DNA of 37,383 nt from a virus. How positions within the stretch are numbered: position 1 is the first letter of the stretch; each line of letters begins with the position of its first letter. The stretch lies in IMG/VR virus record IMGVR_UViG_3300044641_003711, positions 1 to 37,383 of that record; one strand, 5' to 3'. A model generated the notes under the pieces. It was not told the DNA's origin and did no database searches. It saw nothing but the letters and a program-made list of their open reading frames with translations. Position numbers and translations under genes: made by a program. Of the stretch, positions 6,716 through 26,400 are shown piece by piece.

Positions 6716-7119
6716 CGGTCCACCTCCACGATGCGGACCTCAAGCCCGTACTCTTTCGGGAGCCCCTTGCGCTGTGAGTACTCCCATCGGACCTTGCGCT
6801 CGTCGCCGTCGTCCACGCCGATCATCTTGGCGACCTGGTCGCGGACGCCCTTGCAGGAGCCGGCGAGGTTGTCCGAGTCGAGCTTGCGGACGCCGACGCG
6901 GGTCAGGTGGACGACGACGGGCGGCGCAACGCGGATACGCTGGGCGAGCCAGACCAGCTCGACGGCCCGCTGCTGCGCCTTCTTGCGCTTGTTCTTGATC
7001 GCCCAGTGCTCTCGCATATTGGCCTCGCTGACCAACTTGGTGGGCACATAGAAGGAGATCTGGCGGCAGTCGCAAGGGTTGTAGCCCCATGAAGCGCAGG
7101 TCGGCTTGTGGCTACTCAT
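6712..7119 (-). CDS. rusA: RusA-like Holliday-junction resolvase (135 aa)
   Basis: RusA-type enzymes are dimeric, Mg2+-dependent nucleases that cut Holliday junctions and other branched DNA made during replication, recombination and packaging. The active-site pattern is L-D-S-D-N-L-A (D81, D83, N84), K90, and R-D (D94), followed by a conserved I-G-V-D-D-G-D segment (about 100-106). These match the catalytic Asp/Lys residues of the family. The length (about 120-140 aa) is normal. An N-terminal Cys-rich start (C-A-S-W, C-D-C) is extra. It overlaps the PAPS-reductase-like gene by 8 bases. Confidence 0.8.
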   Translation of the reverse strand: MSSHKPTCASWGYNPCDCRQISFYVPTKLVSEANMREHWAIKNKRKKAQQRAVELVWLAQRIRVAPPVVVHLTRVGVRKLDSDNLAGSCKGVRDQVAKMIGVDDGDERKVRWEYSQRKGLPKEYGLEVRIVEVDR

Positions 7120-8008
7120 CCTTCTTCTCCACGTTGGTTTCGCACAGGCCCCACCTCATGCACCCAGCATCACGCTCGCCAGCGGCGAACAGTTCAAACT
7201 GCTTGCCGCCGCGCGAGGTCTTGCTCCACTGCACCACGGTGTCGATGGGCCAGCACTCGCCCGTCCCGCCGTTTCGGGCTTGAAACCATGAGGGATTGTT
7301 CTTCAGTGTGTCGCCGCGAGCCTCATTGCGCTCCTTGGCCTTGAGCGTCACCAGTCCCTCCAGTTCACGGATGCGGTCAATGCGCTCGGGATCGGCGTCC
7401 GCAATAAAGCGGATCTCCTCCTTGCGAGCGAACACGCACGGCCAGCATCCAACGCGCTCGGCACCCTTGAGATACAGCGGATTAGGCGCAAGACCGTGTC
7501 GCTTGTGGATGTCGATCACATCCTGCTCGCTCCACCGGATCAGCGGGCGCCACACCTCGCAGTCCATGATGTTTTGCCACTCCCACTCAGCCATCTTGGA
7601 TCGCGCCTCAGACTCGGCGGCTCGCACGCCCACGGCGTTGACCACATCACCGTCCGTATCTTGGATTGACCGGATGTGGCGCTTCATCGGATCGACCTTG
7701 AGCAACTGAGTGCAGAATCGCTGCATCCGCGAGGGGAACATCCCCTTGTGCAGTACCAGTTCCTCCATCTTGCGCTTGGGCTCCAACCAAGTGATCGGCC
7801 CCAGTTTCTCAGTCAGCGGCCCGCGCAGGTAGGCGTAGGTCAGGTCATGTTCCCATCCGGTGTCCATGAACACGCGGTCGTGCTCGATCCCCAACTCGGT
7901 CAGGTACAAACTCATGGCAGCGGAGTCTTTGCCGCCGCTGATGCTTGCCACGACCCGACGCCCGTTGATCTTCACCTTCAACTCCGCAATCTGATCACTA
8001 GTCAGCAT
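7112..8008 (-). CDS. PAPS-reductase-like PP-loop protein (298 aa)
   Basis: The PP-loop S-G-G-K-D-S is at residues 24-29, with a later G-V-R-A-A-E-S-E-A-R (about 127-136) and M-Q-R-F-C-T-Q-L-L-K (about 95-104). These are the hallmarks of the phosphoadenylylsulfate reductase / DndC-like ATP-pyrophosphatase superfamily. G-C-W-P-C (187-191) plus C99 may hold an Fe-S or metal site. Members reduce PAPS, or in DndC incorporate sulfur into DNA; other phage homologues have no known substrate. ATG 8008 has GAGAGG seven bases upstream. No dndD/E or sulfur partners are seen, so DNA phosphorothioation is not supported. It sits between RusA and small genes. Confidence 0.85.
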   Translation of the reverse strand: MLTSDQIAELKVKINGRRVVASISGGKDSAAMSLYLTELGIEHDRVFMDTGWEHDLTYAYLRGPLTEKLGPITWLEPKRKMEELVLHKGMFPSRMQRFCTQLLKVDPMKRHIRSIQDTDGDVVNAVGVRAAESEARSKMAEWEWQNIMDCEVWRPLIRWSEQDVIDIHKRHGLAPNPLYLKGAERVGCWPCVFARKEEIRFIADADPERIDRIRELEGLVTLKAKERNEARGDTLKNNPSWFQARNGGTGECWPIDTVVQWSKTSRGGKQFELFAAGERDAGCMRWGLCETNVEKKDE

Positions 8009-8225
8009 AAACAAGCCTCTCTGCTCGGATGTCGGTCTGCCACGCCCAGATCGTGCCGTCGTCGCCGCGCACGGCGAGGAACAGCTTGCCGCCGTAGGTT
8101 CTCAACTTGAAGTTCACCGCCGGCTTGCGCTTGAGGTGCTCGATGCAAGCATCTGCCATCTCCGACTGCTCGGCGGGCGGCATCTCGCGCACGTCGTTCC
8201 ATCGCTCCCATCCCGTGTCGGTCAT
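7998..8225 (-). CDS. Hypothetical protein (75 aa)
   Basis: The ATG at 8225 overlaps the previous stop (ATGA), so I reject the longer upstream reading. It begins M-T-D-T-G-W-E-R-W and has a helix with E-Q-S-E-M-A-D-A-C-I-E-H-L. A β-part with aromatic residues follows (L-F-L-A-V-R-G-D-D-G-T-I-W-A-W). It resembles a small α/β protein and is unrecognised. Its 3' end overlaps the PP-loop gene by 11 bases, so the two are probably co-translated. Confidence 0.6.
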   Translation of the reverse strand: MTDTGWERWNDVREMPPAEQSEMADACIEHLKRKPAVNFKLRTYGGKLFLAVRGDDGTIWAWQTDIRAERLVYAD

Positions 8226-8688: not shown

Positions 8689-8972
8689 CACTCAATCCCT
8701 GCCTTCGTCATCAGTTGCTTCACCCATGCGAACTTCGACGTGAGTTCCATGTGCCTCTTGAGCCGCTCAACGTAGATGTGCTGGCCCTTCTCAGCGAGGT
8801 CAGCGTCGGTGGGCCTCGGCGGCACGGTGTCAGAGCCGGGGTTCAGGCGATGCGCCACGCAAGGCTCCATGTCCCGGCACGCGCAGTCGCCCCAAGGCAC
8901 CTCATGGATGCTTGGCGGCTTGGGCTTTAGCCGGCGGACGCCGCAGCACGGGCACTCAATAGAGGTGGTCAC
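8688..8972 (-). CDS. Small Cys-rich protein (94 aa)
   Basis: The start is GTG 8972, coupled to the helicase-loader gene by a GTGA overlap. The N-terminal third holds C-P-C-C-G and C-A-C-R (about residues 7-33), a likely zinc site. The C-terminal half is helical and basic (V-E-R-L-K-R-H-M-E-L, W-V-K-Q-L-M-T-K). It lies directly downstream of the DnaC-like gene, which suggests a replication-accessory role, but this is inference. Confidence 0.6.
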   Translation of the reverse strand: MTTSIECPCCGVRRLKPKPPSIHEVPWGDCACRDMEPCVAHRLNPGSDTVPPRPTDADLAEKGQHIYVERLKRHMELTSKFAWVKQLMTKAGIE

Positions 8973-9832
8973 TTCACTTCTCCCATGCGCTGCTGGTACT
9001 CGCGCTTCATGCGCCTCAAGTCGGTGGTGCCCGCCTCAATCAAGCCAACCTGCGGGCGGCGTGACAAGCGCGAGCGCAGCCGGTCGCCGTAACGCTTCAC
9101 GATGCCGACGCCGTTGAGGTTGGTCGTGACGACCGTCCGCTTGCCGCTATCGAGGCGGTCCACAAGAAGCCCGCCCAGGGTGTCGGTGCTCCAGCCGCTC
9201 TCGCTCTCGCGCTCGGTGCCCAAGTCGTCAATCACAAGCAGGCCCACGCGGTAGGCAAGCTCGCTGACAGGCTTCCAGCGCTCCAGGTCGTCCACCATGC
9301 GGGCGCTAAGCCACAGCGCATTGTCCTGCGTGCCGGCGACGATCCAAGCGGCAGCGGTGCTCTTGCCGGTGCCAACGTCCCCGGTGATGACCAGGCAGCG
9401 GCAATCGGGGTACGACAGCCACGACTCAGCGCCCTCAACCACCATCATCGCGGCTTCACGCTTGCCCTGATCGGGACCGTACCAAGCGCGAGGCGGCTGC
9501 GGCATAACGCGGATCGGGGCGAGAGCCTTGATCACGTCGGGATCGGGCACGCCAGCGTGCTTCATGCGCTCAGCACGGCGCTTGGTCAACTCCTCCTCGG
9601 CGGCGCGGTGCGCCTCGGCCTCGACGTGTCGGCACATGGGGCCGTCAAGGAAGCCATGCGTTTCGGTATCCGGGTCCAGCCTTGAGGAGCACTTGAGCGC
9701 CACCTCGCTGTGGGCGTTGGGGCAGCGCGGGCAGTCCTCGCGCCGCGTGCGCTTGATGTTCTCCATTGCCACCAGGGCGCGGTCCTGAAAGTGCTTGAGG
9801 CTCATCTCATCGAACGTCGAAAGCTTCTTCAT
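8969..9832 (-). CDS. DnaC/IstB-like AAA+ helicase loader (287 aa)
   Basis: This ATPase class loads the replicative helicase at the phage origin. Walker A is G-D-V-G-T-G-K-S-T (151-159), Walker B L-L-V-I-D-D-L-G (198-205), sensor T-T-N (236-238), and an Arg-rich box follows near 250-258. The N-terminus has C-P-R-C (34-37), C48 and C67, a possible zinc site, before the ATPase domain. The start at 9832 overlaps the initiator stop (TGATG). Pairing with the initiator directly upstream fits the initiator-loader arrangement of phage lambda O-P or DnaA-DnaC-type systems. Confidence 0.85.
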   Translation of the reverse strand: MKKLSTFDEMSLKHFQDRALVAMENIKRTRREDCPRCPNAHSEVALKCSSRLDPDTETHGFLDGPMCRHVEAEAHRAAEEELTKRRAERMKHAGVPDPDVIKALAPIRVMPQPPRAWYGPDQGKREAAMMVVEGAESWLSYPDCRCLVITGDVGTGKSTAAAWIVAGTQDNALWLSARMVDDLERWKPVSELAYRVGLLVIDDLGTERESESGWSTDTLGGLLVDRLDSGKRTVVTTNLNGVGIVKRYGDRLRSRLSRRPQVGLIEAGTTDLRRMKREYQQRMGEVK

Positions 9833-10743
9833 CACTCTTCTCCCCACATGGAGCGCATGAAAGCGTCCCCGGTACCGACTGCGTGAACCGTGCGGCTAAC
9901 GTGAGCGCCCGTCGCGCCCTTGTTCCACTTGGCGAGCCCCTTGGTGATCCCGTTGTCGCTCACAAGCCACCCAAGGCCGGCGGTCTTGCTAAACGCATCC
10001 GACTCCAAGCCCTCAAGCGCCCGCATCAACTGATCCATGCCTCGCGCCTTGCGCTGCCTCCGGAAGCCCATCCATGCCCCGGTGTTCCAGCGAAGCTCGT
10101 CGGCGGTCAGGCCGGTGAGTTTGCGAGCGGCGTCCATCCAGCGGTCGCCGTCTGCCTTCTCAACCACGCGCTCGGCCTCGGCCTCCGGGGACTTGTCCTT
10201 CGGCGGGCGTCCTCGACGGGGCTTGACCTCCTCAACCGGCGCCGCGTCTTTTCGATTTTCGAAAAGCGCAAGGTTGTTGTTCTTTATCTTCTCTTCTCCT
10301 CTCATCTCCTCTAACGGGGGGACGCTCCCCGCGACGCTCGCAGGGAGTGTCGCTACGACTGTCGCGGAGGGTGTCGCAGGGAGTGTCGCGGCGACATTTT
10401 TATTTGTGTCGCGTAGTTGACGGATGCGGGTGCGATCTTTTTCCAGCTTTTTCGCGTGAGCGCCCTGATATTCCACCCACGCATGGATCTGATCGCCGTC
10501 GATAAATCCTGCCTGACGCATGGCGTCAACAAACATGATCGGATCGCCGGCCCATCCGGCTCGACGGGCGATGACGACGGGATGGAGTCCGGTCAGGCTG
10601 CCGTCAGGCCGCACGCGAGACACCCAGAGCCACAACTCAACAACGTGCGTCCAAGCGCGAGGCTCCTCAAGGATCGCCGCCAAGTGATCGCTCTTGGGAT
10701 GATCCGGCAGGTCGTTGTAGATCCTGATCCAAGGGAGACTCAT
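9832..10743 (-). CDS. Replication initiator-like protein (303 aa)
   Basis: The N-terminus (M-S-L-P-W-I-R-I-Y-N-D-L-P-D-H-P-K-S) through residue ~100 looks like the winged-helix DNA-binding part of phage replisome organisers (DnaD/O-like). Residues 117-141 are four-residue repeats (V-A-A-T, L-P-A-T, P-S-A-T, V-V-A-T) encoded by 12-bp DNA repeats that may be the origin. An AT-hook-like P-R-R-G-R-P-P-K lies at 175-182. The C-terminal part is helical and may bind the loader. ATG 10743 has GGAGG five bases upstream. The leader has strong palindromes. It lies immediately upstream of the DnaC-like gene. Confidence 0.7.
   Translation of the reverse strand: MSLPWIRIYNDLPDHPKSDHLAAILEEPRAWTHVVELWLWVSRVRPDGSLTGLHPVVIARRAGWAGDPIMFVDAMRQAGFIDGDQIHAWVEYQGAHAKKLEKDRTRIRQLRDTNKNVAATLPATPSATVVATLPASVAGSVPPLEEMRGEEKIKNNNLALFENRKDAAPVEEVKPRRGRPPKDKSPEAEAERVVEKADGDRWMDAARKLTGLTADELRWNTGAWMGFRRQRKARGMDQLMRALEGLESDAFSKTAGLGWLVSDNGITKGLAKWNKGATGAHVSRTVHAVGTGDAFMRSMWGEE
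10324..10412. repeat. 12-bp iteron-like array inside the initiator gene
   Basis: TGTCGC occurs at 10348, 10360, 10372 and 10384, exactly every 12 bp. A degenerate copy (GCTCGC) lies at 10336, and another TGTCGC at 10407 follows an AT-rich stretch. The AT-rich segment 10395-10406 is bracketed by GCGACA and TGTCGC in inverted orientation. A further palindrome, CTTTTCGA-TTT-TCGAAAAG, lies at 10248-10266 with pyrimidine-rich AT-rich DNA following. Iterons within an initiator gene recall oriλ in gene O, so this is a candidate replication origin. Confidence 0.65.
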
Positions 10744-10787
10744 AAGAGCCTCCAGCGTTGAACGTGATGCATGGGTCACCAAAGACA

Positions 10788-10827
10788 GAGAGCGCATCCG
10801 GTTGTGTCAGCAACCGAACACGCTCTC
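10788..10827 (-). promoter_or_regulatory. Nested hairpin in the leader of the initiator gene
   Basis: GAGAGCG (10788-10794) pairs with CGCTCTC (10821-10827). Inside it CGGTTG (10799-10804) pairs exactly with CAACCG (10811-10816) around TGTCAG. On the leftward strand this sits 45 bases before the initiator start. It could be an RNA structure, a repressor site or a replication element. It is not followed by a T-run. Confidence 0.55.
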
Positions 10828-10864
10828 CGGGGCGTGGGGGGATCGCCCTAAAGGCTCTGTGAGT

Positions 10865-10882
10865 CCGCTGCTGACACAGCGG
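10865..10882 (-). promoter_or_regulatory. Second palindrome, operator-like, next to a -35
   Basis: CCGCTG (10865-10870) and CAGCGG (10877-10882) are perfect inverses around CTGACA, the complement of the core of the first palindrome at 10799-10816. The ten bases TGTGTCAGCA (10803-10812) recur inverted at 10869-10878. On the leftward strand TTGACC overlaps the site, but I see no good -10. Two matching 18-bp palindromes 66 bp apart suggest dimeric-repressor operators. Confidence 0.5.
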
Positions 10883-10899
10883 GTCAAGCGAGGGGGACG

Positions 10900-11073
10900 T
10901 TACCGACGTTCCGGTCGCTTGTCAACTCCTCTGCGGTACCAGATCGCCAGCGCCTTGATCTTCGCTAGTTCATCACACTCGCGACGCAGCACCACGACCT
11001 CAGCGTGCAGCCGGATCAGCGCGAGCCACAGCACCACGACGACCAGGCCCAGCACGACCTCGAGGACCGTCAC
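10900..11073 (-). CDS. Small membrane-anchored protein (57 aa)
   Basis: The GTG at 11073 overlaps the Cro-like stop (GTGA). The protein has a single strongly hydrophobic helix (L-E-V-V-L-G-L-V-V-V-V-L-W-L-A-L, about residues 4-19). A charged tail with L-R-R-E-C-D-E-L-A-K-I-K and R-R-G-V-D-K-R-P-E-R-R follows. It is probably N-out/C-in, with the tail in the cytoplasm. The role is unknown; an early membrane protein that affects the host or tethers replication is possible. Confidence 0.6.
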   Translation of the reverse strand: MTVLEVVLGLVVVVLWLALIRLHAEVVVLRRECDELAKIKALAIWYRRGVDKRPERR

Positions 11074-11291
11074 GCTGTCAGACCCCTGAGCGCCGCGCGC
11101 TCCTTGACATCCAGCCACGAGTCGGGCGGCACCTCGCCGTGCGTCAGCGCGCACACAGCCAGCGCGTAGTACAGCGTCGGCAGCGTCGTCCCCGAGCACC
11201 ACTGCTGCACCGCTTGCCGCTGCACGCCCAAGCGTCGCCCCAACTCTGCCTGGCTCATGCGCTCCCGTGACAACCACTCTCGCAACGTCAT
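11070..11291 (-). CDS. Cro/XRE-like HTH regulator (73 aa)
   Basis: This is a λ-repressor-fold HTH: R-E-W-L-S-R-E-R-M-S-Q-A-E-L-G-R-R-L, then V-Q-R-Q-A-V-Q-Q-W as recognition helix and C-S-G-T-T-L-P-T. These positions (about 4-45) fit Cro-type repressors that bind DNA as dimers. AGGAGG is five bases before the ATG. It is transcribed leftward away from the divergent region 11292-11485, where its operators probably lie. It may repress the rightward promoter and its own gene. Another name would be XRE family regulator. Confidence 0.75.
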   Translation of the reverse strand: MTLREWLSRERMSQAELGRRLGVQRQAVQQWCSGTTLPTLYYALAVCALTHGEVPPDSWLDVKERAALRGLTA

Positions 11292-11390: not shown

Positions 11391-11463
11391 CACTTGCGTC
11401 ATCCGTGTCGATTTATTTTGACTCGACAAGCGGACATGGCTAGAGTGCCCAACGTCGCAAGTG
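11391..11463. promoter_or_regulatory. Symmetric operators around the divergent promoter
   Basis: CACTTGCG (11391-11398) recurs inverted as CGCAAGTG (11456-11463). Inside these lie TGTCGA (11406-11411) and its inverse TCGACA (11423-11428), which overlaps the -35. These nested inverted repeats in the 194-bp gap between the Cro-like gene and the recombination operon are good candidates for the binding sites of that regulator. I see no gene in this gap. Confidence 0.5.
11418..11446 (+). promoter_or_regulatory. Sigma70-like promoter for the recombination operon
   Basis: TTGACT (11418-11423) and TAGAGT (11441-11446) are spaced by exactly 17 bases. Transcription would start near 11453 and read into the gene at 11486. 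The nested inverted repeats around it suggest control by the Cro-like protein. No equally good leftward promoter was found in this gap. Confidence 0.6.
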
Positions 11464-11485
11464 AGCGACCAACACGGAGGACGCA

Positions 11486-11908: not shown

Positions 11909-12637
11909 ATGACCGCCATCACCAAGACCGACTGGACCCGCGAGCAGATCGACACCATCAAGCAGACCGTCGCCAAGGGCGCCAACGACGCGCAGCTCGC
12001 TCTGTTCCTTCAGGTCTGCAAGTCGCGCGGGCTGGACCCGTTCGTCAAGCAGGTCTACTTCACGCCGCAGGGCATCATCGTCAGCATCGACGGCCTCCGC
12101 GCCATCGCGGAGCGCACCAACTGCTACGCTCCCGGCGCCACCCGCTACGAGTACGACGACAGCAAGAACCTTGTCGCCGCGTTCGTCAGCGTCAAAAAGT
12201 TCGTCAACGGCACTTGGTTCGACGTTGAGGAGTCGGCGTTCTACGAGGAGTACCGTGGCTCGTCGCCCATCTGGAAGAAGATGCCCCGCGTGATGCTCGC
12301 CAAGTGCGCCGAGGCTCGAGCCCTGCGCCGCGCGTTCAGCAGCGACCTGTCCGGCCTGTACGCCGCCGAGGAGATGGATCAGGCGCAGCGCGAGGAGCGC
12401 CCCGTCGAGCGCCCTGTCGTCGTCGTGCAGCCCCAGGATGACGGCATTGAGTTCCCCGCCGCGCCGTCGATGAGCGCCGCGTACACCGCCGCCGTCAACG
12501 CCATCGCAGACGCCAGCACCTTGGACGCCCTCAAGATCGTGGCCGGTCGCATCAGCGCCGCCAAGGGTGACATGACCGCGCAGGAGCAGTCGGACCTCCG
12601 CGCCCGCTACAACGCTCGCCGTCAGGAGGTCGCGTGA
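11909..12637 (+). CDS. bet: RecT/Redβ (Bet) single-strand annealing protein (242 aa)
   Basis: This recombinase anneals complementary single strands during phage recombination and replication. The N-terminal core has I-D-T-I-K-Q-T-V-A-K-G-A-N-D-A-Q-L-A-L-F-L-Q-V-C and R-G-L-D-P-F-V-K-Q-V-Y-F. Then S-I-D-G-L-R-A-I-A-E-R-T, M-L-A-K-C-A-E-A-R-A-L-R-R-A-F and L-S-G-L-Y-A-A-E-E-M follow, all typical of the Bet family. A Val/Pro-rich linker follows near residue 170 and a helical tail completes it. The length fits the family. The next larger gene encodes a RecB-like exonuclease. Confidence 0.9.
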   Translation: MTAITKTDWTREQIDTIKQTVAKGANDAQLALFLQVCKSRGLDPFVKQVYFTPQGIIVSIDGLRAIAERTNCYAPGATRYEYDDSKNLVAAFVSVKKFVNGTWFDVEESAFYEEYRGSSPIWKKMPRVMLAKCAEARALRRAFSSDLSGLYAAEEMDQAQREERPVERPVVVVQPQDDGIEFPAAPSMSAAYTAAVNAIADASTLDALKIVAGRISAAKGDMTAQEQSDLRARYNARRQEVA

Positions 12638-12825
12638 AGACCCGCGAAGAAATGATCATCTACTGGCGCGAGGCCGCAGAAGCCGCTGAAGCCAGAATCA
12701 TTGAGCAGCGGCAAGACTTATCCAACCTTCGGATGGCGCTGGATTCTGTCAACGAACGACTGCACGAACGCACTCTGGAACTTGACCAGTTGAAGGCAAA
12801 AGTGACAAAGGGGTTTTTCAAATGA
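12634..12825 (+). CDS. Small coiled-coil protein (63 aa)
   Basis: The GTG start overlaps the Bet stop (GTGA). The protein is one long helix with Leu/Ile spacing (Q-D-L-S-N-L-R-M-A-L-D-S-V-N-E-R-L, T-L-E-L-D-Q-L-K-A-K-V), ending K-G-F-F-K. It may dimerise. It lies between the annealing protein and the exonuclease and may bridge them, which is inference. The stop overlaps the exonuclease ATG (ATGA). Confidence 0.6.
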   Translation: MKTREEMIIYWREAAEAAEARIIEQRQDLSNLRMALDSVNERLHERTLELDQLKAKVTKGFFK

Positions 12826-13961
12826 AGATCACCGGCTCCACGCTCCCGGTCCTCCGCAAGTGCCAGTGGTGGGCTCGCGAGGATGTCGTCGCGCCGCCCG
12901 CCCTGCCGCCCTCGGACGCCATGCTGATCGGCACCGAGGTTCACGCGGCCATTGAGGGCGTGCTCACCAAGCGCGACGTGAAGTTGTCCACCGACGACGG
13001 CATGGATCTCTTCCGCGAGTGGATGCAGTGGTGGAGCACCTCGCCGCTCGCCGCCAACCAGTGGAAGGCCGAGGTCGCCTACGCCTACGACGTGCAGCGT
13101 GACGCCGCGCGTCTGATCGGTGAGAACGTCGGGCGAGGCTACGAGGTCAGCGCGTCCGAGATCCCTGGCACGATTGACGCCCTCGCGCTAGACGATGAGC
13201 ACGCGCACGTCGTGGACTGGAAGACGACCAGCGGCTTTGGCCCCGGTCCCGCCGATGCCGAGGACAACTGGCAGTTGCGCCTGTACGCCTTGATGGTCGC
13301 TCGCGCGCACCGCGTGGACAGCGTTACGATCCACGTCGTCCGCATCACCACCAACGGCGTCACCAGCACCTCGCACACCCTTGACTCGCTTGAGCTCGAC
13401 GCGGTCGCCCATGAGGTTCAGCGCCTGGTGCAGTCGGTGCCCACCGCTCTGCCTCAGTCCGGCTCGCACTGCCACCGCTGCCGCGCTGTCGCCGTCTGCC
13501 CGACGACCAACGCTGCGACGACCGCCATCGCACCGCCGGCTCCGATCAAGTTGGAGATCAACGACGACAACGCCGGCAACCTGCTGATGAAACTGCGCCA
13601 GGTGCAGGCTGCGTGCGAGCAGCTTGAGGGCGCGCTCAAGTTGTACGCCGCGAACAAGAACGAGGAGGGCATCCGGCTCCCCACTGGCAAGCGTTGGGTG
13701 CGGACCAGCGTGGACCGCGAGTCGATCAACCTCAACGGTGACGCCAACGCGATGGGGATCGCGATCATCAGCATGGCCGGCGCCGAGAAGGCTCTCGAGC
13801 CCAAGATCAGCGTTTCCAAGGCCGGCATCGAACGAGAACTCAAGGCCGCTGGCCTCAAGGGCAAGGAACTCAGGGAGAAGCTCGACAACGTGATGAGCGA
13901 GCTGCGCGCGGCGGGCGCTACCCGCACGACAACGGTGGACAGTTACCGGGAGGTGGAGTGA
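12822..13961 (+). CDS. Cas4/RecB-like PD-(D/E)XK exonuclease with Cys cluster (379 aa)
   Basis: This nuclease probably resects DNA ends to make substrate for Bet. G-T-E-V-H-A-A-I-E-G includes H41, E84 is a candidate acidic site, D119 lies in G-T-I-D-A-L, and D132-W-K134 is the PD-(D/E)XK core. Q151 and Y155 follow (N-W-Q-L-R-L-Y-A-L). C14, C217, C220 and C226 match the four-Cys [4Fe-4S] layout of Cas4/AddB nucleases. The C-terminal third is helical. The domain order and the Bet neighbour fit a phage exonuclease-SSAP pair. ATGA overlap at the start. Confidence 0.8.
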   Translation: MKITGSTLPVLRKCQWWAREDVVAPPALPPSDAMLIGTEVHAAIEGVLTKRDVKLSTDDGMDLFREWMQWWSTSPLAANQWKAEVAYAYDVQRDAARLIGENVGRGYEVSASEIPGTIDALALDDEHAHVVDWKTTSGFGPGPADAEDNWQLRLYALMVARAHRVDSVTIHVVRITTNGVTSTSHTLDSLELDAVAHEVQRLVQSVPTALPQSGSHCHRCRAVAVCPTTNAATTAIAPPAPIKLEINDDNAGNLLMKLRQVQAACEQLEGALKLYAANKNEEGIRLPTGKRWVRTSVDRESINLNGDANAMGIAIISMAGAEKALEPKISVSKAGIERELKAAGLKGKELREKLDNVMSELRAAGATRTTTVDSYREVE

Positions 13962-17354: not shown

Positions 17355-17987
17355 ATGGCGCGACGAGTGCTGGTCGGATGCGAGTTCTCAGGCACTGTCC
17401 GTGATGCTTTTGCCCGAAAAGGATGGGACGCGTGGTCATGCGATCTGCTCCCCACCGAGTCGCCAGGGAATCACTTTCAGTGCGACGTTCTCGACGTGCT
17501 TGGCATGGGATGGGACTTGGCAATCTTTCATCCACCATGCACGTACCTGACGAGCAGTGGACTGCACTGGAACAAGCGTGTTCCGGGGCGAGAACAGAAA
17601 ACTCAAGAGTCCTTGGATTTTGTTAAGGCTCTTCTTGCCGCACCGATTCCGATGATCGCCTTGGAAAATCCCATTGGACGTATTGGCACCGCCATCCGGC
17701 CAGCGGATCAGGTAATCCAGCCATATGAGTACGGTCACGACGCATCAAAGGCTACCTGCCTCTGGCTCAAGGGACTTCCGCCACTACGGCCTACGCAGTG
17801 GGTATCGCCCAGGATCGTCAATGGCAAGAAACGATGGGGAAACCAAACCGATACGGGACAAAACAAGTTGGGGCCATCGGAGGACAGGTGGAAGATCAGA
17901 AGTTACACCTATCCAGGCATTGCGACAGCCATGGCCGAGCAGTGGTCACGGGTCATTGAGAGCCCATCGCAACTGGTGTTAGTGTGA
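17355..17987 (+). CDS. C5-type DNA methyltransferase-like protein (210 aa)
   Basis: The N-terminus R-V-L-V-G-C-E-F-S-G-T-V-R-D-A-F resembles the SAM-binding motif I. D-A-W-S-C-D-L-L-P follows, then H-P-P-C-T-Y-L (59-65), the Pro-Cys motif with a candidate catalytic Cys. L-E-N-P (103-106) corresponds to the ENV-type motif of cytosine-C5 methyltransferases. It is short and lacks an obvious target-recognition domain, like small phage relatives of this fold. It may protect phage DNA from restriction. A few bases separate it from the RHH gene; the next small gene starts four bases after its stop. Confidence 0.75.
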   Translation: MARRVLVGCEFSGTVRDAFARKGWDAWSCDLLPTESPGNHFQCDVLDVLGMGWDLAIFHPPCTYLTSSGLHWNKRVPGREQKTQESLDFVKALLAAPIPMIALENPIGRIGTAIRPADQVIQPYEYGHDASKATCLWLKGLPPLRPTQWVSPRIVNGKKRWGNQTDTGQNKLGPSEDRWKIRSYTYPGIATAMAEQWSRVIESPSQLVLV

Positions 17988-23443: not shown

Positions 23444-26400
23444 CTACTTCAACTGTGCATTCCGGCGAGCAGATCCTTCGTAATCCGCACGCTCAGGAAG
23501 CCTCAACGCCTTGGCGCGACTCAGCGGCATTTGCGCCTGCTCGCGCTTCTGCGCGTCCACTTGGCGCTGCTGGCCGTAAACCGATTGAGCCGGGACAATC
23601 TTTGCCGCCTGCATCCGTCCGTCGATGTCTTTGCCCAGAATCATGGACACCATCATCCGATGCTTCTCAGGCACCTTCCCGGTCTGCTCAATACGCTCAA
23701 GCAACTTGGATCGCACGTCTGCCATAAGCGACGGATACACGGTGTTCAGAGCGTCAATCTGCTCAGGCAGAAGCGCACCCTTTCCTGCCAACTCCAGCGT
23801 TTCAACCGGGTTCATCACGGCGTCTGTGATCCGCAAAAACTTGCGCTTGTCGGCATCTACCGGTTCCCAGGTAAGCAACTGCATGGGAGGCATATTAGCC
23901 GGCGGCTTAGGCTTCACGTTGGCAAGATACTGAAGCGCCGTGGCGTTCACGGTCTTGGTCGCATCCGCAATCGTCGGCGCGTCATCAACCATGTCGGCCA
24001 GCATCGCATCCTGCTGATCCATCAGTGCGTCCGCATCAACCGCAAGCTCACGCACGCGGCGCTCAACCTTTTTGTATTCCTCATCCAACTTCTTGCGCGT
24101 GGCAAAGCTTCCAAGCGCCTCGCCCGTCTTTACGGCAACCGCACCAGTTCCGGTCAGCACGTTGGCAACGCCGCCAACCTTGTCGCTGACCGTGATCATC
24201 GCCTTGTTTAACTTGGCAAGCGTCTTGGCGGTCGTAACAGGAGATGATGCAGCCGTCAGAGCCGCACCACCAATAGCACCCAAGGGACCAAGAGTTGCGC
24301 CGCCCAGGACCGGAGCGCCGGCCTTAACCGCAAACTTGATCACGGACGCCAAAGATCCCGCTGAAGAAGCAGAACGCAACAGATTGATTTGCTCTGTGAT
24401 CTGCTGCTGTCGTGCCGCTGTGGCCTTGGAAAACTCTTCGTTCAAAGACCTAACGACCTCATCACGGATAGCAACTTGTCGCTGGTACTCTAGGCTCGCC
24501 GCGTTGATGCCTTCGGTTCTCGCCTCTTTGGCGGCTTGAAACTCCAAGTCCCGCGCTTCTTTGGCGCGTTCAAACCGGAACTTGATCTCATCTACATCGG
24601 CGCTGCGAGCCTGCTTGGCCTCTTCGTACGCATGCTTGAGGTCATCAACCTCCATCTGGCGCGTTGCTTTTTGCTGTGCGTACGTCGCTTTAATCTCTTC
24701 AATCTTGGCCTTGCGTGCAGCCTTAATCTGATCCTTGGTCATGCCAGTGGCGAGCGCGTTGGACTCTTCAATTGCGGCATTAGACGCATCGTTAACCGCA
24801 TTCTGGATGGCGCGATCATACGCACGCTCAGTCGCGGCCATGCGGTCTACAACTGCGCCCTTGTCAACATTGGCCTTTACATAGTCAGAGACAGATACGA
24901 TGCGATCAACAAGTGCGCGACGCCCCTCAAAATACTGCCCGAGCGCATCCCTAAACCGAGCCGACTCATCAGCGTTAATGTTCTTGACAATAGACTTAAG
25001 TTTTTTGGCGTCTACAATCAACTCGGTCGGCAGGCCGGTTACAGGATCGTCAATAATGTCAACCAACTTGGGTGCGGCCTTCTTAAGGTTTTTAAGCCCT
25101 GCGTAATACCGGCGGGCATCTGCCTTCCACTCGCTCTCAAGAACGGCTGCATCTCCCCAGAGGTCTTTGTTCAGCACCATGTTCTTAAAGTCTTGCTTCA
25201 AGGAACCGTACGCCGCGTTGACCTGGCGCGGCAACAACGCCAGTTCTTTCGCAAAAACCGCTCCCTCCTTGCGCTTGTAAAACAGCTCTTGGTCAACCCA
25301 CTTCATCTCTTGGAAGATTTGCTCTGGCGTTGGGTTGGCGGCTTCAAACGCCGTCAGACGATCCTCAAGCCCCTCCAAGGTTCGATTAACCTTGTACGCA
25401 GCCTCTTGAGCGGATGGAACCATCTCTCCCGTCATGCCGTAAGTCTTGGCAACCTGCCTTGCCGACTTGACGCGACCGATCAAATCCTTGAGCGCGTTTC
25501 TGTATGGAGTATTAATGAACTCCCCAGATTCAATTTGTGCGAGAAACGCCTCGTCAGCAAACGTCAACGGCTCTCCCATCTTGCTTTCGTATAGAGCGTT
25601 GACCATCTCATCCGTCTGCTTCTGAAGCCGATTGCGAATGGTCTGATTGATCTGCACCTTGCGCCACTCAGTATTGGCGTCGTAAAGCAGCCCGCCTTTT
25701 TTAGGAGCAGCAATCTGCCGAATATCCTGCTCAAGAGCGCCGCGAAGTTCACGCGCAACGGCGTCGTAATCAACAGGCTTCAACGGAGTACCAGCAACAG
25801 CAACCGGCTCAAGCGACGTGGGAATGTACGGACGAGGAACCGGAGGCGGCATCTCAGGCTTCGGCACGGGAGGCGGCATCACCGGCTTGCCCATCGGCGG
25901 CGGTTTGGGGATCGGAGGAGGAACGACAGGAGGTGTGATTTCTGGGGGCAGCGGCGCCCTGGCTGGCATCGGCGTAGCCTCTTCAATCACACGGCGCAAA
26001 CCCTTCTTGGCTAGATCCTCCTTAGCATCCATGACCGCGCGGATCGTTTCGGGTTCCGCGCCCGTGATGAACGACGCGATCTCTGGGTACACCTTGCCAA
26101 TCGCGTCCTTGATCTTGTTGCCGGTGGCTCTTGCGGCACGCAGGCCAGCACGCAGGGTCGGCGGCACCAGCGCCTCGGCTACGCCAAATCCAGCGCCCAA
26201 ACCAGCGTCGAAGCCAAGCGTTGCGTACGCGCTCTCAGCCACCAACGCAGGATCGCCCAACGCCATCTCGTTGGCGACACCCTGCAACCCAAACATCATC
26301 ATCTCAGCAGAGCGACCCAGGCCAAGACCGATGGCCTTAGCGGTCAACTCCTGCCGGACCTTGAGCGTTGCGAGGCTTTCCTCAGCCTTGGCAAGACGAG

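Follow-up and report, generated by a model that had tools for sequence, protein, structure and literature searches.

A probable replication origin inside the initiator gene of an uncultured phage, with a five-base purine tract that recurs beside the iterons of other phages

The origin of phage lambda lies inside gene O, at positions 39034–39160 (PMC3349717). Lambda has 4 iterons and Stx phages have 6, the change in number adding residues to the O protein, and O proteins also bind the AT-rich region as single strands (PMC7466680). In SPP1, oriL is located inside initiator gene 38 and the loader is encoded separately (PMC6316719). DnaA-trios are short TAG-type repeats which adjoin the DnaA boxes (PMC10316083, PMC10201434), and plasmid Rep proteins bind one strand of the repeats in the unwinding element at the same time as the iterons (PMC4081077).

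Here we examined a 37,383-nucleotide stretch of viral DNA (IMG/VR record IMGVR_UViG_3300044641_003711, referred to here as the window), which is a fragment of a genome of roughly 45 kb. From its sequence and that of its relatives, we consider it highly probable that the segment 10248–10412 is a theta-type replication origin inside the initiator gene, at which the initiator would bind the iterons and open an adjacent tract, and a loader would place the helicase. The initiator gene (9832–10743, minus strand) encodes 303 aa from an ATG at 10743 with GGAG upstream; starting from an alternative ATG further upstream (10797), it would encode 321 aa. Its product matched the PHROG 9474 profile, "replication initiation protein", over residues 23–192 (E 3.1e-24) and, more weakly, phrog_3926 and phrog_2509, which are also initiator families, and its distant relatives carry the same annotation. 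The lambda O family, phrog_345, was absent from its profile matches at E<=1. The gene of a DnaC-like AAA+ helicase loader (8969–9847, minus strand; phrog_50, E 3.7e-22) overlaps the end of the initiator gene. The PHROG 9474 match and this neighbour both support an earlier note on this DNA, which had proposed an origin inside an initiator gene beside a helicase loader. To our knowledge, no member of this initiator family has a characterised origin. In the predicted structure of the initiator, residues 11–90 of the N-domain had a pLDDT of 71–90 per 10-residue block, and a fold search of the AlphaFold model, at which the N-domain was confident only in part, detected nothing significant in the PDB.

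Directly upstream of the initiator gene, the leader has strong hairpins at 10786–10829 and 10798–10883, with a 19-pair stem and TGCTGACACA in inverted copies, and is possibly regulatory. The divergent intergenic region at 11395–11485 carries a promoter-like site (11418–11446) and the dyad GTCGA..TCGAC, likely the operator of a small repressor-like gene at 11070–11291. Other genes of the window encode a phosphoadenosine phosphosulfate reductase-like protein (7112–8014), a RecT/Bet-like annealase and an exonuclease (11909–13961), and a DNA methyltransferase (17355–17987).

Four 12-bp iterons, GCGACA-N6, lie end to end on the minus strand at 10342–10389 (10389–10378, 10377–10366, 10365–10354 and 10353–10342). 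Read on the plus strand, they are the TGTCGC copies reported earlier at an exact 12-bp period (10348, 10360, 10372 and 10384), all of which were confirmed. The degenerate copy noted at 10336 was also found and reads GCTCGC, within the minus-strand unit GCGAGCGTCGCG (10330–10341), as was the outlying GCGACA at 10407–10412 (minus strand), which lies past an AT-rich patch (10397–10406) and in another reading frame. We identified one further copy, missing from the earlier list, which is inverted (10391–10396, plus strand), makes TGTCGC-G-GCGACA with the copy at 10384 and is kept in both close relatives, L133 and L003. Between the iterons and the purine tract there is a GC-rich spacer with a hairpin (10314–10341, minus strand), as seen in the DNA fold of 10315–10396. 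Counted over the entire window, the word TGTCGC shows no excess (40 found vs 38 expected); however, the densest hexamer cluster of the window is formed by its six copies, or those of its complement GCGACA, within 75 bp, a cluster that was reached in 0 of 1000 synonymous shuffles of the initiator gene. Rfam gave no match. On the strand opposite the initiator gene, TGTCGC-G-GCGACA and TTTTTATTT form a terminator-like hairpin with a T-run (10379–10401), which could alternatively be a dyad initiator site.

On the far side of the repeats, the perfect palindrome that the earlier note had described is present at 10248–10266 as CTTTTCGA-TTT-TCGAAAAG, belonging to neither strand in particular, with a hairpin z of -3.0. 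The AT-rich, pyrimidine-biased DNA claimed for about 10248–10310 was likewise recovered, as no 70-bp stretch between 6 and 16 kb is less stable than 10245–10314, and no 30-mer anywhere in the window has a stronger pyrimidine bias than 10282–10311. This bias reflects a repeat with a unit of five bases (KAGAN on the gene strand): the tract at 10279–10313 (minus strand) reads TAGAG GAGAT GAGAG GAGAA GAGAA GATAA AGAAC, and we propose that it may serve as an unwinding or strand-loading element. In the orientation of the gene, the order is thus an outlying GCGACA, the AT-rich patch, inverted and direct iterons, the GC-rich hairpin spacer, the purine tract and the palindrome.

Only two independent close relatives were available in the collections, namely L003 (IMG/VR) and L133 (a contig of an Actinomycetales MAG); L002 is a near-identical copy. 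The L133 contig (G003:C37, 45569 bp) has ends which are contiguous in the window, and therefore probably represents an entire phage genome, circularly permuted, that was binned with a bacterium. The initiator protein of the window is 95% identical to that of L133 and 83% identical to that of L003. At the DNA level, the segment 10248–10412 shows 99.4% identity to L133 and 97.0% to L003, vs 79% and 83% overall, and ranks in the top 1.8% and 0.9%, respectively, of 165-bp windows for identity. The synonymous test was run with slightly wider bounds (10235–10440). Between the window and L133, 2 of 68 codons differed synonymously inside these bounds vs 25 of 143 in the rest of the gene (OR 0.14, p=0.0015), and the comparison of L133 with L003 also showed fewer differences inside (OR 0.32, p=0.015); for the window and L003, synonymous codons alone gave no significant difference between inside and outside (OR 0.56, p=0.14). 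The check suggested earlier, that iteron DNA be conserved beyond the protein, thus came out favourably in segment identity and at synonymous sites, more weakly for the window and L003 alone. Apart from the origin segment, a tape-measure tract (24868–25850) is 98.8–100% identical to L133 over about 980 bp in genomes that are some 20% apart, which we read as a recent exchange.

L003 has one additional 12-bp unit, GCGACACTCCCT, identical to units of the array. Its palindrome reads CTTTTTGA-AAA-TCAAAAAG on the gene strand, with both arms altered at paired positions from C-G to T-A (one change is synonymous and the other replaces Arg with Gln), so that the inverted repeat survives through compensatory changes. 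From about position 1060, the C-terminal part of the L003 initiator and the loader are swapped for a diverged pair, at which the loader shows 41% identity, while the N-domain and the repeats are retained. Such modularity would be expected of an initiator whose N-domain reads the DNA and whose C-domain contacts the loader.

The alternative that survives best, although we consider it improbable, is that the segment is a secondary or lytic-only origin and that the main origin lies elsewhere. SPP1 has two origins, oriL and oriR (PMC6316719), and since the window is a fragment, another array may sit in the missing part. However, no second motif cluster was detected in the window, and the densest 100 bp of the 45.6-kb relative is the same site. 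The skew check proposed in the earlier note did not help, as GC skew was uninformative, with no extremum at 10248–10412; a minimum of detrended purine skew in the L133 contig lies 126 bp away and is confounded by gene orientation.

Distant initiators share 26–38% identity in the N-domain, and their iteron sequences are lineage-specific. The alignment of nine N-domains was too divergent for a scan of the collection, and because simple counts of hexamer clusters were underpowered in these homologues, lag tests were used. Repeats of 11 bp were found at the matching gene position in L149 and L150 (GTCACGCG, with copies also in Harrison) and in a Microcystis phage (ACCGTTCA); G445, with a different initiator type, has GTGCAG/CTGCAC at 17 bp. 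In Mx9, G323 and G177, the lag test gave no significant array at 10–13 bp. The repeats thus often keep their position, although their sequence is replaced. No close relative keeps the protein and loses the repeats, a pattern which the earlier note had named as evidence against an origin, whereas some distant homologues gave no significant array. A scan of viral contigs for GCGACA every 12 bp gave many matches, but besides L072, a relative of the window, just one contig weakly matched the initiator and another the loader; thus, the iteron word itself is no general marker.

The purine tract is more widely distributed. It is identical in the window, L133 and L003, and self-match at 5 bp exceeded that of synonymous shuffles in the window (p=0.002), L003, Harrison, L149, L150, Lagaffe, Shimadzu and nd4 (p 0.002–0.03); two cyanophages have a 6-bp version. 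The period of five bases is not derivable from an amino-acid repeat. In the window, the tract is a T-to-G variant of the TAGAG form and is read in another frame (LEEMRGEEK). When AGAGTAGA-NN-AGAGTAGA was searched for, at least 120 stretches were returned; among the matches listed, 47 loci fall in ORFs of 200–420 aa, in phages whose GC content spans 32–68%, the tract being placed at codon 162 (SD 22). Forty-six tract-bearing proteins gave matches to many PHROG families, of which about 20 carry an initiator, primosomal, helicase-loader or O-like annotation, weak matches possibly being aided by a common linker. About half of the listed matches lie outside such ORFs, several of them behind an iteron array, e.g. 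TGTCACATGTGACATTTGTGACTGTCACG followed by TAGAG. When the peptide RV[DE]xSR was searched with codons left free, 11 matches were found, and all initiator-type ORFs among them use AGA and GTA for Arg-Val and then AG-type codons, even at 60–63% GC, which argues that the DNA is conserved and not the peptide.

At least four copies of one hexamer occur within 100 bp 5′ of the tract in 26 of 95 non-redundant loci among the matches listed (a few of these arrays being extensions of the tract itself). The same is true of the 3′ side in 2 of 95 loci, and of 7 among 475 random stretches (Mann-Whitney p=4e-25). A reversed control pattern gave 37 matches in the entire collection, two of which lie in ORFs of 150–420 aa. 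This control is not perfectly neutral, since two of its other matches, L309 and L320 (GC 71%), have GAACGAAC repeats followed by a GAGAN tract; their ORFs have no PHROG match, and we take them as a GC-rich form of the same iteron-then-tract layout. A 296-genome sample of the phylum of the MAG of L133 contained two AGAGTAGA-type matches only, neither in an initiator. Long intergenic pentamer tracts of TAGAG/AAGAG were also seen in L171, L182, L195 and L165, some running into TATATA-type DNA and, in the first three, directly after palindromic iteron-like repeats; all four are candidate intergenic phage origins.

We read the tract as a strand-opening or helicase-loading element, which would be comparable to the DnaA-trios yet distinct from them. 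A broader proposal, to which we give about even weight, is that the KAGAN tract (TAGAG in AT-rich phages and GAGAN in GC-rich ones) is a widespread, unnamed origin element, found on the 3′ side of the iterons as the purine strand is read, either in initiator genes or between genes. It would be read as single-stranded DNA, which we infer, by a factor common to unrelated initiators. As a five-base analogue of the DnaA-trio, it would determine the place and strand of helicase loading. No prior description of a pentamer tract was found in the literature searched, whose coverage excluded most subscription journals.

It is very unlikely that the repeats are instead a feature of the protein, with an Ala-Thr-rich flexible linker expanding by slippage and the DNA having no role. 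The array is in frame and, as stated earlier, encodes four-residue repeats (ATLP ATPS ATVV ATLP), residues 121–180 are predicted to be disordered (pLDDT about 30), and the segment is conserved in the protein as well. However, the copy at 10407 falls in a different reading frame (R-D-T) and that at 10391 has the inverted orientation; thus, the protein cannot explain all copies. The threonine codon ACA, used in 9.4% of cases in the genes of the window, is fixed at 5 of 5 sites in the array region. Constraint at synonymous sites and the paired palindrome changes of L003 also speak against this explanation, as do the linker proteins of distant homologues, which are unrelated while several genes still have DNA repeats there. 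Similarly slight is the chance that the segment is a control site, either an antisense terminator (10379–10401) or an operator bound by the initiator, or by some other phage protein, to shut down its own gene or to stop transcription, since, despite the hairpin and T-run on the plus strand and the fact that many initiators autoregulate, the segment lies mid-gene and not at a promoter, terminator-like matches are at chance level (4 found vs 2.1 expected), and neither the adjacent low-stability tract nor its recurrence with iterons in other phages is predicted.

If the segment is an origin, the N-terminal domain of the initiator, perhaps a winged helix by analogy, would bind the GCGACA iterons as duplex DNA. 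The complex would then open the pentamer tract, probably aided by negative supercoiling and by keeping hold of one of its strands, and the DnaC-like loader would place the host helicase on the exposed strand via the C-terminal domain of the initiator. The palindrome would bound the element at its other end, as it does in lambda. Such an origin, with defined though predicted parts, would belong to a group of uncultured phages of which no member has been studied, and the scans suggest a single strand-opening motif common to phages whose initiators and iterons are unrelated. If true, origins of metagenomic phages could be located by sequence pattern alone, with the tract as a usable marker, and the long-standing question of which phage-origin signal directs strand-specific helicase loading would become testable with short oligonucleotides.

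Among described systems, lambda is one of the closest in layout. Both have mid-gene iterons in the initiator, an AT-rich, purine-biased tract and a palindrome in the same 5′–3′ order (iterons 1–4 in lambda), with the loader gene directly after the initiator gene; thus, the lambda-type reading, which the earlier note had offered by analogy, is well supported by this order. Iteron number differs between Stx phages and lambda as it does between L003 and the window. However, lambda iterons are 18-bp inverted repeats with spacers, whereas GCGACA recurs directly every 12 bp in the array of the window, the initiator and lambda O fall into different PHROG families, the loader is a DnaC-like AAA+ protein and not lambda P, and the tract is GC-richer than that of lambda and built of pentamers. 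The PHROG 9474-type initiators of Harrison, FP_Lagaffe, Shimadzu, nd4 and Microcystis phages share a homologous N-domain and have iteron-like repeats and/or a short-period tract at the matching gene place, but with their own lineage-specific iterons. SPP1 oriL also lies within an initiator gene, with its parts in the same order, and SPP1 differs in having a second origin. RK2-type iteron plasmids, whose winged-helix initiator binds one strand of the unwinding element, resemble the proposed origin in having iterons together with repeats in a putative unwinding element, and perhaps in the fold of the initiator, whereas their repeats are AT-rich 13-mers and not purine pentamers, and their origin lies outside the initiator gene. 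Like the tract of the window, a DnaA-trio is a short repeated purine tract containing TAG, next to initiator boxes and a GC-rich spacer. Its unit is three bases (TAG/TAA/AAG) and not five, its initiator is DnaA, which that of the window is not, and in B. subtilis the TAG strand runs towards the binding sites, whereas the purine strand here runs 5′–3′ away from them; by its period of five and its opposite polarity, the phage tract is not a DnaA-trio.
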